From Halobacteria archaeon HArc-gm2 (GTDB lineage Archaea; Halobacteriota; Halobacteria; Halobacteriales; Haloarculaceae), in NCBI GenBank assembly GCA_025517465.1, contig JAOPKE010000005.1, positions 1 to 64,000 on the forward strand: DNA of 64,000 nt. The letters run 5' to 3'. Shown here piece after piece: positions 4,668 to 44,511 of this stretch. The translations under genes were made by a program, and so were the position numbers. Numbering within the stretch: position 1 is the stretch's first letter; each line of letters opens with the position of its first letter. The notes beneath the pieces were generated by a model. That model had not been told where the DNA came from, did not search any database, and saw only the letters and a program-made list of their open reading frames with translations.

Positions 4668-4735
4668 CCCGTCTCGTGGTGTCGGTTGGGAGCCCTAACC
4701 GTCGTTCGACCTGACTGGTGCCGTCGAACGCCGGG

Positions 4736-4741
4736 AAAAAA
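4736..4741 (-). terminator. Oligo-T terminator after the MEDS/GAF regulator
   Basis: On the minus strand six T residues follow a GC-rich stretch about 40 bases after the stop codon of the large regulator gene. Archaeal transcription commonly ends at such T-tracts. Confidence 0.4.
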
Positions 4742-4782
4742 GTACAACCGACACTATCGGACCGCGTCGGCGTCGAAGACTA

Positions 4783-30457: not shown

Positions 30458-31399
30458 ATGGACCGGACCCGGCTGTTCCGCGGCGTGGCCGTCGCCGTCG
30501 CAGTCCTGGCCGTGGCGACCGTCGCCGGCGGGTTCACGTCTGCCGGCGGCGGCGACGGGGAGGGAGCGCGGTCTCCGGGTCTCGGAATCGGCGAGGGTGA
30601 CGGCGCGGGCCTGGGCGACGGCGACGACGTGGGCCTCGTCGCCGACGAAGAGCCGGGCGGAATCCAGCTTCCCGCCTGGCTGGTGACCGTCCCCCTCGCC
30701 GTCGTCGTCTGGTCGTCGCTCGCGTTCTTTCTCGCCTTCGTCGTCCACACCGCCTGGACCGGTCGGCTCGACGAACTCGTCGCGGTGGTCCGCGAGGCGC
30801 TGGTGGACGTCCTCGCCGCGGCGGTTCTCCTCCTCGGACTGATAGCGCTACTGAGCGTTCTCAGTCTGCTACTGGGCGCTGGCGGCGGCGGGCTGCTCGG
30901 CGGTGGGGCGCCGGCCGGGCCCGCGACCGGGGGTGGCGAGCGCTCGGTCGCGGTTCCCTCACCGTCGCTGGTCACCGGCGTCGCGGTGGTCCTCGGCCTC
31001 CTGGGCGCGGTCGGCGCGGCGGTCGCGCTGGGCCGCGAGGTGGCGACCGATGAGTCGGAGTCGACGTCGTCGTCCGGCGGTTCCCGTGGGAGACGTCACG
31101 CCGTCGGCGGGTTCACCGACCTCCCCGAAGAGGAGGCCGTCTCGGACGTCCACGCCTCGAATCCCGTCTACCGCGCCTGGCGCGAGATGGCCGACCGGGC
31201 CGAGAGTGCGACCGACGACACGCTGACGGCCAACGAGGTCGCCGCGACCGCAGTCGGGCACGGGTTCGACCCCGACGCGGTCCGGGAGCTGACCGCGCTG
31301 TTCGAAGCGGTTCGCTACGGCGACCAGCCGGTGACCGATACCCGCCGCCGTCGTGCGGAGTCGGCGCTCGAATCGATCGACGAACCCGAGGTTTCATAG
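30458..31399 (+). CDS. DUF4129-domain membrane protein, cassette 1
   Basis: The 313-residue protein starts with a hydrophobic signal/anchor (about 8-28), has an acidic Gly-rich extracellular loop, two or three more membrane helices (about 70-95, 112-140, 165-190), and ends with the cytoplasmic DUF4129 helical domain (VYRAWREMADRAES... TANEVAATAVGHGFDPDAVRELTALFEAVRYG). DUF4129 proteins sit in MoxR/DUF58 systems of unknown envelope function. It opens the first of two copies of a four-gene cassette. Its stop codon lies inside the left arm of an 82-bp palindrome, so its last residues may have been set by that insertion; the paralogue at 34962 ends instead in a 4-bp overlap with the next gene. 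Confidence 0.8.
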   Translation: MDRTRLFRGVAVAVAVLAVATVAGGFTSAGGGDGEGARSPGLGIGEGDGAGLGDGDDVGLVADEEPGGIQLPAWLVTVPLAVVVWSSLAFFLAFVVHTAWTGRLDELVAVVREALVDVLAAAVLLLGLIALLSVLSLLLGAGGGGLLGGGAPAGPATGGGERSVAVPSPSLVTGVAVVLGLLGAVGAAVALGREVATDESESTSSSGGSRGRRHAVGGFTDLPEEEAVSDVHASNPVYRAWREMADRAESATDDTLTANEVAATAVGHGFDPDAVRELTALFEAVRYGDQPVTDTRRRRAESALESIDEPEVS

Positions 31400-31477
31400 T
31401 GGTGGTTGTAACTTTTCACCGGCGTTCGCCGGCACCGGCGACGTCGAACGCGGGTAAGGGCTTACAACCACCACTAT
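31396..31477. repeat. 82-bp palindrome with 16-bp perfect inverted arms
   Basis: ATAGTGGTGGTTGTAA (31396-31411) and its exact reverse complement (31462-31477) enclose 50 bp that contain a further hairpin, CCGGCG-TT-CGCCGG. It lies between the DUF4129 and DUF7269 genes of cassette 1 and supplies the stop codon of the former. The second cassette has no such sequence: there the two genes overlap. This makes an inserted MITE-like element or a hairpin regulatory element more likely than an ancestral feature. Confidence 0.75.
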
Positions 31478-31493
31478 CAGGAGGGAGCCAGCC

Positions 31494-32075
31494 GTGAACA
31501 GTCGCGACGCGTTACTGACCATCGGCGTCGCCACGGCCGTTGTCGGTATCGCGATGGCGTACCTGCCGGCCGTGACGGTCGTCGACGTCCCCGCCTCGGT
31601 GCCGCTGCTGATCGGCGTGGTCGCGCTGGTCGCCGCACTGGTCCGGGGCCGGGCCTGGCTCACCCACGAGAGCCGTGACGTCCGACCCGCCGAGCGCGAG
31701 CGGCCGAGTGCGGTCGGCGTCCCGGGCGACGACGTCGACGTGACGCTCGCCCGGGCGCCGCCGGTCGGATCGACCGGGGGTCGCGGTGGGGCGGACAACC
31801 GGCGGATCCAGTTCCGCCAGTCGCTCCGTGAACTCGCCGTCGAGACGCTCGTCACGTTCCAGGGGTACACGACCGAGGATGCCAGGCGGGCGGTCGACCG
31901 GGGGACCTGGACCGACGACCCGCTGGCAGCGGCCTTCTTCACGTCGCCGACCGGGGAAGCCAGGTCGGTGACCGGGTCAGTGCGCGGGACGCTCTCCGGC
32001 GAGCGCCCGTTCCACCGTCGCGCCGAACGCGCGGCCAGCGAGATCGAGCGACTCGGGCGAGGTGCGGAGCCGTGA
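31494..32075 (+). CDS. DUF7269-like small membrane protein, cassette 1
   Basis: A GTG at 31494, preceded by the Shine-Dalgarno-like CAGGAGGG eight bases upstream, opens 193 codons. Two hydrophobic helices lie in the first 55 residues; the rest is a cytoplasmic helical domain with FRQSLRELAVETLVTFQGYTTEDARRAVDRGTWTDDPLAAAFF (read in parts) and a PFHRRAERAASEIERL tail. The paralogue at 35897 keeps the same helix pair and the GxWTDD and PFHRR motifs. Function is unknown; the constant position between DUF4129 and DUF58 suggests a structural partner of the membrane complex. Confidence 0.75.
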   Translation: MNSRDALLTIGVATAVVGIAMAYLPAVTVVDVPASVPLLIGVVALVAALVRGRAWLTHESRDVRPAERERPSAVGVPGDDVDVTLARAPPVGSTGGRGGADNRRIQFRQSLRELAVETLVTFQGYTTEDARRAVDRGTWTDDPLAAAFFTSPTGEARSVTGSVRGTLSGERPFHRRAERAASEIERLGRGAEP

Positions 32076-33502: not shown

Positions 33503-34005
33503 ACGTCGACTACGAGACGTTCGACGACTCGCCCTCGCCCACGGGCCTCGTGCTGACGGTGGTGCCCGCCGCCGTCGCGGCGCTCGCCAGTGCATCCTTC
33601 CTCCCCGCAGTCGCCGTCGCCCTCCTGGCCGTCCTGGTACTGACGGTCGGCGTGCGGAACGCGTCCCGGTCGCTCGTCACCCTGGGCGCCGTCGTCCTCT
33701 TCGGCGCGGTGCTCGTCGCCGGCGCGTCCGACGCCCCGCTCCCGTTCGTCCTCGTCGGCGCGGGCGCGACCGTCGTCGCCTGGGACGCCGGCACCAACGC
33801 CATCACCGTCGGCCGACAGCTCGGTGCCGTGGCGGAGACGCGCCGGCTGCAACTGGTCCACTCGCTCGCGACGACCGGCGTCGCGGCAGTGGTGGGGACC
33901 GTCGGTTACGGCGCCTTTCGGCTGGCCACCGGCGGCCAGCCGACGGCGGGCGTGGCGCTGTTGCTGCTGGCTGTGCTCCTGTTCAGCTATCTGCTCGACG
34001 GGTAG
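33499..34005 (+). CDS. DUF7519-like membrane protein, cassette 1
   Basis: The 168-residue protein begins at a GTG whose GTGA overlaps the DUF58 stop, a coupled arrangement repeated in cassette 2; a GTG nine bases earlier is possible. It has four or five membrane helices and a conserved VVAWDAGTNAITVGRQLG segment in the middle, preceding a helix ending SYLLDG. Its paralogue at 37824 shows VVAWDAGENAISLGHQLG at the same place. Function unknown. It ends just before a large palindromic repeat element. Confidence 0.75.
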   Translation: MNVDYETFDDSPSPTGLVLTVVPAAVAALASASFLPAVAVALLAVLVLTVGVRNASRSLVTLGAVVLFGAVLVAGASDAPLPFVLVGAGATVVAWDAGTNAITVGRQLGAVAETRRLQLVHSLATTGVAAVVGTVGYGAFRLATGGQPTAGVALLLLAVLLFSYLLDG

Positions 34006-34080
34006 GGATGGTGTTAGGGGTTCGCGCGCTGGAAATACGTTCTCGGGCCTTTCTGCCGAATGGTGTGATTAGTTCTGTGA

Positions 34081-34899
34081 GTGTTGTGAGTGATCTGTCG
34101 GGTTTGGGTTGTCAACGTGATCGAGGAAGGCAACACGTCGAAAGACCTCTGTGCGCTCTCTGCAGTCAGAATCGGGACCGACACCAAAGGAAAGCCCTCG
34201 GCCCGCTGAACTCGCGCGGACCGCACTGCGCTCCTCGTTGCACTGCGGTGCTTGTGGGTCCGTGCTTCGTTCACCGAGCCTCGCCCTTCCAATCCACCAG
34301 GAGAGCAAGCTCTCCTGAGCCCTGGCTCGCTTCGCTCGCCAGGACACCAGGATCAGCCTCGCTCGCGCGATGGAACGCGCTCGCGATTAGCTCCGCCAAA
34401 CCTCCCCGGATTCGGCGCGGACGCGCCGAATCACGCTTCCTGCCCGCTCCGCAACCGCACGGCCGGGAGCGCGTTTCATCGCGCGACCAGGGGGAGGGCA
34501 GGGCTACGGTGCTGTGCTGGCCTGGGGTCCTGCCGAGCGTAGCGAGGCAGGGCTCGTCAGAGCTTGCTGTGCTGGCCTGGGGTCCTGCCGAGCGTAGCGA
34601 GGCAGGGCTCGTCAGAGCTTGCTCTGACGGTGGACTGAAAGGGCGAGGTGCGGTCCGGGAACCCGGGCGCAGCAAGCACCGGACGGAGTGAGGTCGTTCG
34701 AGAGAGCGAAGCTCTCTCGTGATGACGAAAGGCGCTTCGCGCCTTTCGAACCACGCGCAGCAAGCCCCGGGACCGGAGCGCTCCGAGGGCTTTCTGGTTG
34801 TTCGCGGACTTGTATCCTCCAGCACCAGTCCAGAAGAATCACCCACTCACAACACAAACTACTCGATCACGTAGATAACGCAGATCCCACCCAAACCCG
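34081..34899. repeat. Large palindromic repeat element B, between two DUF58 cassettes
   Basis: The core (34190-34794) starts GAAAGCCCTC and ends GAGGGCTTTC. Its left unit (34190-34300) and right unit (34630-34794) are inverted versions of one another, each carrying the GCACCG/GAGGAGCGCAG-type inner motif and a CGCCCTT/AAGGGCG box. Weaker inverted matches reach outward (CGGGTTTGGG at 34099 with CCCAAACCCG at 34890; CGTGATCGAG at 34116 with its complement at 34862). The centre holds a 10-bp-stem hairpin with GGAC loop at 34409-34432. Compared with the elements at 44112 and 63268 the centre is in reverse orientation. It is full of open frames, but these are Pro/Arg/Ser-rich and I regard them as spurious. 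Confidence 0.8.
34511..34620. repeat. Two exact tandem copies of a 55-bp sequence
   Basis: Positions 34511-34565 and 34566-34620 are identical, each beginning GCTGTGCTGGCCTGGGG and containing the small palindrome CCTGCC-GAGCGTAGCGA-GGCAGG. They lie in the centre of repeat element B and are absent from the other two elements, so the duplication is recent and local. Confidence 0.85.
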
Positions 34900-34961
34900 T
34901 CGCACTCGCGCGTCCAGTTCCACGAACGATTAAATACGGTGACGGCTGATGCTAGCTCACA

Positions 34962-35900
34962 ATGGACGAGCGAGCGATCCTCGTCGTGGTGGTGGTGCTG
35001 GGCGTCGTGGGGCTCTCCGCGTCCGCTGCCTCGATCGGCGATTCGCGCGACACTCGCTCGGTGGGAACGGGCACGACCGCCTCCGAGGGCGTCGGTGAGG
35101 GGGCTGGCGAGGGGATGGGGGGCGGAGAGGCGTCGACGCTGGGGAACGCCAGCGGAACGGGGCTGACCGACGTCGGGATAGTCGGGCAACTACTGGGGAT
35201 TATCGCCCTCTCGCTCGTCGCCGTTCCGCTCCTGATCTCGCTGGTCCTGTACGGTCGCGAGACCGTCGTCGCGTTCGTGAAGTCGGTGCTCCAGACGACG
35301 ACGGGGGTCTTCGCGGCGGTCCTCTACCTGGGCGTGGTCATCTATCTCCTGTCGTTTCTCGACGGCGAGAAAGCCGGTAACTACGTCTCGGGGGTGCTAC
35401 GGGGCGGCGGCAGCGGGTCGTCGTTCGGCCCGGCGCTGTCGGTCCCGTCGGGGAACGTCCCGCTGATCGTCGTCGCACTGGGTGGCGTCGTCCTGCTGGT
35501 GGTGGTGGCCGCGTTTGCCCTGCGCTCCGTTTCGAGCCCGTCGCTGGACTCGCCCGATTCCGAACCAGTGGCCGACGACAAGGTGATAGACCTGGACTCG
35601 GCCCGAGAAGCGCCCGACGGCAGAACTGCTGAGGCGGCCTTCGCAGACGTCGACGCGTCGAACCCGGTGTACTGGGCCTGGCGCGAGATGGCCGAGGCCG
35701 CCGACGGCGCCAGCCTCCGGACGCACACGCCCGGCGAGGTGGCGCGACGGGCCGTCGACGCCGGGATGGACCGGGACGCCGTCCGGACCCTGACGGAGCT
35801 GTTCGACCGGGCGCGGTACGGGAGCGTCGGCGTCGACGAGGAGTCCGAGCGGCGCGCCCGGGCGGCCCTCGACGCGATAACGGAGGGCGAGGAGACGTGA
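34962..35900 (+). CDS. DUF4129-domain membrane protein, cassette 2
   Basis: The 312-residue protein has a signal/anchor (about 4-24), a Gly/Glu-rich outside loop, helices near 68-92, 102-130 and 158-182, and the cytoplasmic DUF4129 domain (DASNPVYWAWREMAEAADGASL, then EVARRAVDAGMDRDAVRTLTELFDRARYG). It is a paralogue of the protein at 30458, with the same layout and the ASNPVYxAWREMA signature. A TATA-like ATTAAATAC about 30 bases upstream (near 34930) implies a leaderless start. It is coupled to the next gene by a GTGA overlap. Confidence 0.82.
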   Translation: MDERAILVVVVVLGVVGLSASAASIGDSRDTRSVGTGTTASEGVGEGAGEGMGGGEASTLGNASGTGLTDVGIVGQLLGIIALSLVAVPLLISLVLYGRETVVAFVKSVLQTTTGVFAAVLYLGVVIYLLSFLDGEKAGNYVSGVLRGGGSGSSFGPALSVPSGNVPLIVVALGGVVLLVVVAAFALRSVSSPSLDSPDSEPVADDKVIDLDSAREAPDGRTAEAAFADVDASNPVYWAWREMAEAADGASLRTHTPGEVARRAVDAGMDRDAVRTLTELFDRARYGSVGVDEESERRARAALDAITEGEET

Positions 35901-44111: not shown

Positions 44112-44511
44112 GAAAGCCCTCGGCGCGCTCCGGTCCCGGGACTCGTTGCGCTCCTCACTCCGTTGCGGTGCTTACGTCGTCCGGGTTCCCGGACCGGCCC
44201 TCGCCCTTTCAGTCCTCCAGGACCGCAGCCCTGCCCTTCCCCTGGTCGCGCGCCCCTCGCTTCTGCTCGGGGACGCGCTCCTGGCCGACCGCTGTGCGGT
44301 TGCCGTGCTGTGAGGACGCGTGATTCGGCGCGGACGCGCCGAATCCGGGGAGGAGTGGTGGTTCTAATCGCGAGCGCGTTTCATCGCGCGAGCAACGCTG
44401 AACCTGGTGGACTGAAAGGGCGAGGCGCGGTCGACGAAGCACGGCGACGCAAGCACCGACCGCAGGGAGGCGCGCAGCGAGCCGCGCGAGTCGAGCGGGT
44501 CGAGGGCTTTC
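44112..44511. repeat. Palindromic repeat element C
   Basis: It begins GAAAGCCCTC and ends GAGGGCTTTC. The left unit (about 44112-44220) and right unit (about 44405-44511) are inverted copies with boxes CGCCCTTTCAGTCC and GGACTGAAAGGGCG. The centre contains a 10-bp-stem hairpin with GGAC loop (44322-44345), a GCGCG-TTTCAT-CGCGC hairpin (44374-44389) and an ACCGC-TGT-GCGGT hairpin (44288-44300). It has no tandem duplication. It lies between the HNH-like gene start and the DUF192 gene. Frames crossing it are not credible proteins. Confidence 0.8.

Follow-up and report, generated by a model that had tools for sequence, protein, structure and literature searches.

A Palindrome at the Junction of Two Genes

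The window (the whole stretch of DNA analyzed here, 64,000 nucleotides long) contains two cassettes in which a DUF4129 gene precedes a DUF7269 gene (Table 1). In cassette 2 the two genes have the sequence GTGA in common, whereas in cassette 1 they are spaced by 94 bases, and this gap holds a palindrome of 41+41 nt, 78% complementary as a whole, whose outermost 16 nt on either side (ATAGTGGTGGTTGTAA, 31396-31411 and 31462-31477) form perfect inverted arms, both of them exact. A preliminary description of this DNA had reported an 82-bp palindrome that interrupts cassette 1 and is missing from cassette 2, with 16-bp perfect inverted arms around an inner hairpin and the DUF4129 stop codon inside an arm. 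All of this was confirmed in the sequence except the extent of the unit: the mobile core, TAGTGG...CCACTA, is 80 bp long and is flanked on both sides by TCA, and it is to this duplicated TCA, not to the core, that the outermost A and T of the 82 bp belong.

The palindrome is beyond chance, as judged by the exactness of its arms, by the excess of arm matches in the window (four matches to the 15-nt arm TAGTGGTGGTTGTAA with up to three mismatches, as compared with 0.13 expected), and by the predicted fold of the 131-nt stretch around it (z = -3.9). A second, decayed copy of the family lies elsewhere in the window, and the TCG on both of its sides is perhaps a duplicated triplet other than TGA or TCA.

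The spacer between the two cassettes (34000-34960) is itself a long structured repeat, with a perfect 55-bp tandem pair at 34510-34619 and inverted repeats of up to 106 nt; one stretch of it, GATTCGGCGCGGACGCGCCGAATC, is found again near 44322.

Table 1. Features of the junction in cassette 1 and of related places in the window
Feature	Position	Strand	Remark
Decayed 80-bp copy of the family	4677..4756	.	TCG on both sides
DUF4129 gene (PF13559)	30458..31399	+	ends at TAG 31397-31399, within the left arm of the element
Left TCA of the 3-bp target duplication	31394..31396	+	
Palindromic mobile element (80-bp core)	31397..31476	.	
Left arm (outer stem)	31397..31411	+	arm sequence and covariation
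Mispaired box CTTT between both stems	31412..31415	+	partner GGGC at 31458-31461
Inner stem, left side	31416..31430	+	columns 20-34 of alignments A1/A2
Inner stem, right side	31443..31457	-	columns 47-61 of alignments A1/A2
Right arm (outer stem)	31462..31476	-	arm sequence and covariation
Right TCA of the 3-bp target duplication	31477..31479	+	
GGAGGG, Shine-Dalgarno-like	31480..31485	+	host flank; probably coding earlier, from the reading frame of the empty site
DUF7269 gene (PF23933)	31494..32075	+	start codon GTG at 31494
Paralogous empty junction of cassette 2 (GTGA overlap of the DUF4129 and DUF7269 genes)	35897..35900	+	

Copies of the Element and Their Target Site

A search with the palindrome of the genome to which the window belongs (G000, 4.25 Mb) yielded at least 87 match pieces on both strands, the best 40 of 181 candidates being scored. 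The 16-nt arm, with up to three mismatches allowed, occurred at 125 places as compared with 10 for a reversed control; about 25 of the 125, with two or three mismatches, were not among the matches listed by place. When arms with up to four mismatches were paired over distances of up to 420 bp in the fetched loci, G000 yielded 56 candidate elements and a congener (G006) 23, the latter figure covering fetched loci rather than all arms. Among the 56 pairs, one locus (L065) is counted in two readings that overlap, and two further pairs (L005, 184 bp, and L012, 380 bp) arose by chance. The copy number of G000 is about 50-60. Exact arms 30-60 bp apart were present in two of the 59 genomes searched, namely G000 and G006.

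The copies are flanked by a direct repeat. TCA stood on both sides of 26 of the 56 candidate pairs in G000 and 9 of the 23 in G006, and TGA on both sides of 18 and 8, respectively, so that 44/56 and 17/23 have exactly one of these two arrangements, the remaining pairs deviating on one or both sides. With the repeat oriented as TGA, it was preceded by C in 62 of 71 copies from the two genomes, as compared with 49 of the 110 TGA stop codons of the Halomicrobium mukohataei plasmid pHmuk01, and it was followed by G in 39 of 66 copies and by T in only two, as compared with 12 and 19, respectively, of the 49 CTGA stops of the plasmid. The target, C-TSA-G, has two-fold symmetry, and its TSA is duplicated, as would be expected of a dimeric enzyme that makes cuts 3 bp apart. 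The asymmetric core, meanwhile, lay in one orientation in 31 copies and in the other in 32 (63 copies in all), on which ground we rejected a terminator of fixed orientation.

Most elements are 78-81 bp long, and there are also a subfamily of 106-108 bp, shortened forms, and a series of lengths that follows 80+57n (137, 194, 251, 308, and 365 bp), the increments being hairpin modules with similar loops. In three long copies (L080 3002-3366, L079 2502-2809, and L075 3002-3309) the 57-bp hairpin units have stems that are different from one another and yet self-complementary.

Several arrangements around individual copies were seen in passing. On contig C11 of G000 (L027 1502-2658), a UPF0175 gene and a neighboring open reading frame, PIN-like by eye and without a Pfam match, lie between two elements, and the stretch is missing at the same place in G006. 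On contig C1 of G006 (L122 1329-2947) there are two similar adjoining genes with remnants of the element behind each, the second gene matching signal peptidase models. On contig C2 of G001, three copies (L298 near 8129, L304 near 5145, and L309 near 2793) are followed directly by TGATACGG, which resembles the beginning of a further copy and gives the impression that the duplicated TGA had been targeted a second time.

Distribution among Haloarchaea

A covariance model built from 35 copies, applied with strict filters and with the best 11 candidates per genome scored, placed the family in 42 of the 391 haloarchaeal genomes (G000 included) and in 21 of 86 genera; among the matches listed, the alignments span the whole model. 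In 28 of the 40 other matching genomes one copy was inspected, and 22 of these 28 copies had TGA on both sides. With one mismatch allowed, the end motif TSATANNGNNNNNTGTANNNNNTTACCGG was found in 155 of the 391 genomes and in 49 of the 86 genera, as compared with two genomes for the reversed control, the highest count in a single genome being 277 ends. One copy from G001 matches pHmuk01 at 98.8%.

Ten stretches of viral contigs found with one pattern and two found with another had no partner arm with a matching flank and were judged to be chance matches; phage records contained nothing that matched the element of L266; and a wider scan of contigs, from which records near G000 were left out, returned 49 stretches, none from a record titled as a haloarchaeon, which we read as chance. 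A hairpin related to the 57-bp units lies inside a gene annotated as a transposase on a plasmid of Halovenus salina (L292 2001-2037).

Empty Sites

Relatives of DUF7269 were found in 27 of 35 genomes (G000 included). All 12 homologous junctions that were looked at (cassette 2, five from congeners, and six from other genomes) are without the palindrome, and in each the upstream gene and the DUF7269 gene overlap by 1-4 bases, with starts read from the sequence. When the element and one TCA are removed in silico from cassette 1, the DUF4129 product ends in ...EPEVSGGSQP* and its gene acquires the same GTGA overlap as in cassette 2. Because this restored frame runs through GGAGGG, that motif would be former coding DNA and not a part of the element; thus the Shine-Dalgarno motif that the preliminary description had called fresh is indeed present after the stop, as host sequence that would formerly have belonged to the 3' end of the DUF4129 gene. 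The copy in the window is atypical in that its TGA is on the strand opposite the genes and five codons before the old DUF4129 stop.

The end of a gene for a fumarylacetoacetate-hydrolase-like protein provided an empty site at a stop codon; it reads CCCTGAC in G000, G002, and G006, CCCTGA-22-bp remnant-TGAC in G001 and G003, and CCCTAG in G004, the filled counterpart being a remnant and not an intact copy. Some copies appear to be old, since one copy is common to G000 and G006 and has drifted in both (the stretch being 93% identical).

The palindrome is a mobile insertion. The proposals that cassette 2 is a natural empty site and that a small MITE-like element entered cassette 1 have held up well, the first in view of the 12 junctions and the second in view of the many copies, the 3-bp flanking duplication, and the empty homologous sites. 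An arm unique in the genome, and a palindrome conserved at the DUF4129-DUF7269 junction in distant species, had been named as evidence to the contrary, and neither was seen. As this junction illustrates, the element can shorten or alter the C-termini of proteins and change gene overlaps, which is of consequence for annotation.

Docking on Stop Codons

By a crude test, in which a copy was scored as lying on a coding-type stop if its TGA ended an open frame of 60 or more codons in which GC3-GC2 exceeded 0.2, 41 of 55 copies in G000 and 17 of 21 in G006 lay directly on a stop, as compared with 29 of the 310 CTGA sites of the window (9.4%); the test kept 55 copies of G000 (L012 being dropped for its flanks) and 21 of the 23 of G006. 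Another gene caller gave 37/56 and 16/23. In 400 kb of G001, 7 of 16 copies were on stops as compared with 146 of 2486 CTGA sites, and in pHmuk01, for which the deposited annotation was used, the figures were four of the five copies found, exactly on an annotated stop, and 49 of 1336 CTGA sites. Of five plasmid matches from named species, two were exactly on an annotated stop (Natrialba magadii and Natrinema thermotolerans) and three were elsewhere. The docking on stop codons is a solid observation.

We believe it likely, with a probability of about 0.78, that the palindrome is a non-autonomous, MITE-like DNA transposon of a family that is widespread in haloarchaea, moved in trans and kept mainly at the 3' ends of genes. 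According to this model, a putative recombinase supplied in trans would recognize two inverted ends, TANNGNNNNNTGTA-N5-TTACCGG, and would insert the unit of about 80 bp, in either orientation, into the symmetric site CTSAG, where cuts staggered by 3 bp would duplicate TGA (or TCA). Insertions would survive chiefly at gene 3' ends and most often exactly on a CTGA stop, where they would be kept because the duplication restores the stop, which is then followed by the element's own TA(G). In cassette 1 the element would have hit TCAGG, cut the DUF4129 protein short by its own TAG, and separated the former 4-bp overlap with DUF7269; the retuning of translation that the preliminary description had proposed would be no more than a possible consequence. 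The repeat would be a clear example of a mobile element that does little harm because it settles on stop codons, and its many natural insertions can be used to measure how targets are chosen, how selection acts at gene ends, and how the arms of a palindrome evolve in pairs.

Does the element aim at stop codons, or is it merely lost elsewhere? A variant of the model, rather than its opposite, holds that insertion takes place at any CTSAG and that the docking reflects survival only, and we give it an even chance. The strictest null that we applied tolerates only CTGA sites at stops or up to 100 nt downstream and, with the pHmuk01 background used for all genomes, expects 45% of the copies on stops. 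The counts for G001 and pHmuk01 were not significantly above this expectation (0.62 and 0.13, respectively), as survival alone would have it, whereas the excess was significant in G000 (6e-6) and G006 (7e-4), which suggests active aiming at stops beyond CTSAG plus selection. More tentatively, a putative and perhaps domesticated haloarchaeal recombinase could recognize an 80-bp unit that is folded or palindromic and actively insert it at stop codons within CTSAG, with arms that co-evolve at the DNA level (through arm-by-arm correction, or because the hairpin is the substrate) and with long copies that grow by 57-bp hairpin modules, a scheme that we regard as possible though doubtful. Were it true, a genome might hold a hundred or more copies without damage to its genes.

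Search for a Mobilizer and Comparison with Known Elements

The preliminary description had called for a full, transposase-bearing relative with the same ends. An autonomous element with such ends was looked for in the copies fetched from G000 and G006, at the places in these two genomes that match DDE_Tnp_1 (PF01609), the one transposase profile used, in 400 kb of G001, and in pHmuk01, and none came to light. There were two DDE_Tnp_1 places in G000 and three in G006; four of these five loci had no arm at up to three mismatches, and the fifth (L225) contained an ordinary short copy. Long pairs in 400 kb of G001 and in pHmuk01 furnished two candidates. One was in fact a pair of short copies, each complete. 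The second candidate, which is 1,116 bp long and encloses a DUF7509 gene and an ArsR-like gene (L298 1381-2502), was rejected as a cargo-bearing element because G004, which has no match to the end motif, has the same gene order; its ends are therefore remnants of two separate copies on two stop codons. The DUF7509 and ArsR-like pair lies between two remnants in G001 and G003, and in G002 (L330) 115 bp stand in its place, suggestive of a deletion. A cargo reading calls for similar caution in the case of the signal-peptidase-like gene that two remnants enclose in G006.

The most likely mobilizer would be a DDE transposase whose target is symmetric and 3 bp long, as in the IS5 family. IS5-family elements of the IS1031/ISL2 type duplicate a TNA triplet within a symmetric target; the haloarchaeal element resembles them in the symmetry and in the length of the duplication, although its triplet is TSA and not TNA. 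No IS1031/ISL2-type transposase with these ends was present at the DDE_Tnp_1 places of G000 and G006.

With MITEs, as they are presented in a review (PMC10969869), the family shares short, gene-less copies (mostly 58-365 bp, too short for a transposase) in high number, terminal inverted repeats, a target-site duplication, and empty sites in relatives, here the DUF7269 junctions and the fumarylacetoacetate-hydrolase-like stop. It differs from them in having no parent transposon in the parts searched, a nearly strict TGA/TCA target, a preference for stop codons, and a palindrome that takes up almost the entire length and in which both stems covary. The SMRs of Haloquadratum walsbyi are likewise haloarchaeal and tiny (one family is 80 bp), with inverted repeats and no known transposase, but in PMC3119063 they are described as lacking a target duplication, which is present here, and as hitting other mobile elements, and the PATEs as lacking terminal inverted repeats. 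The MITE-like kind of element is known; a haloarchaeal family that docks on stop codons seems undescribed in the literature searched, which comprised full texts judged by title and the start of the abstract and left most subscription literature outside.

Paired Change in the Stems

The arms differ among species and are complementary within each copy. In a set of 30 copies, each from a different genome, 91.8% of cells are paired and changes on both sides were seen at 20 of 30 base pairs, whereas sliding of the partners lowers pairing to 24-51%. The inner stem also covaries, and the 4-nt box between the two stems mostly stays mispaired, neither of which a plain MITE needs, and both of which therefore count against so simple a picture. 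For the transposon model we propose a DNA-level cause, in that the enzyme would need both ends alike; one arm may also be corrected from the other during replication.

Stems that change together while a mismatch box is kept are also what would be expected if the unit were a REPIN-like element, that is, folded single-stranded DNA moved by an HUH (Y1, RAYT-like) enzyme, with the left CTGA as the site and the right TGA as the element's own, and hence with no true duplication. REPINs are the nearest bacterial pattern: REPs retain a mismatch in the stem, as here, and, like the REPs and REPINs of bacteria with RAYT, the haloarchaeal unit is found at gene 3' ends, consists of two inverted, similar halves of about 34 nt that form one long hairpin, and reaches a high copy number without a transposase. 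REPINs, however, are not known to duplicate their target, and here TGA...TGA stands against a single TGA in empty sites, as a 3-bp direct repeat in a symmetric target, though it is conceivable that the right TGA belongs to the element itself. The C before and G after TSA and the 31:32 orientation are unexpected for a single-strand reaction, and the decayed copy with TCG on both sides looks as if another triplet had been duplicated, although two later changes could mimic this. We consider such an origin unlikely. The REPs of bacteria and archaea are treated in PMC12306157; in PMC3733652, GTAG REPs are described as providing the open reading frames beside them with TAG stops, and the GTAG/CGTC tags given there are absent from the ends of the haloarchaeal element.

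Highly improbable, finally, is a structured RNA at mRNA 3' ends (a stabilizer, terminator, or translational brake) selected as RNA, for all that the strong predicted fold, the covarying stems, and the place directly behind stop codons would suit it. RNA function was judged by G.T versus A.C mismatches: over both stems G.T made up 0.12 (A1) and 0.20 (A2) of the mismatches as compared with 0.17 expected by kind, and on the gene strand there were 33 G.T and 39 A.C, although one sub-count, the outer arms of A2 (the between-species set), points the other way with 11 of 38 (0.29). The core, moreover, is present in both orientations. Because the orientation is random and there is no clear G-U preference, we favor transposition at the DNA level over a function as RNA. 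In a comparison of five loci with Rfam, neither of the two matches listed overlaps the element. At L057 (2388-2456, minus strand) there is a match, above the gathering score, to the eL15-Euryarchaeota ribosomal protein leader.
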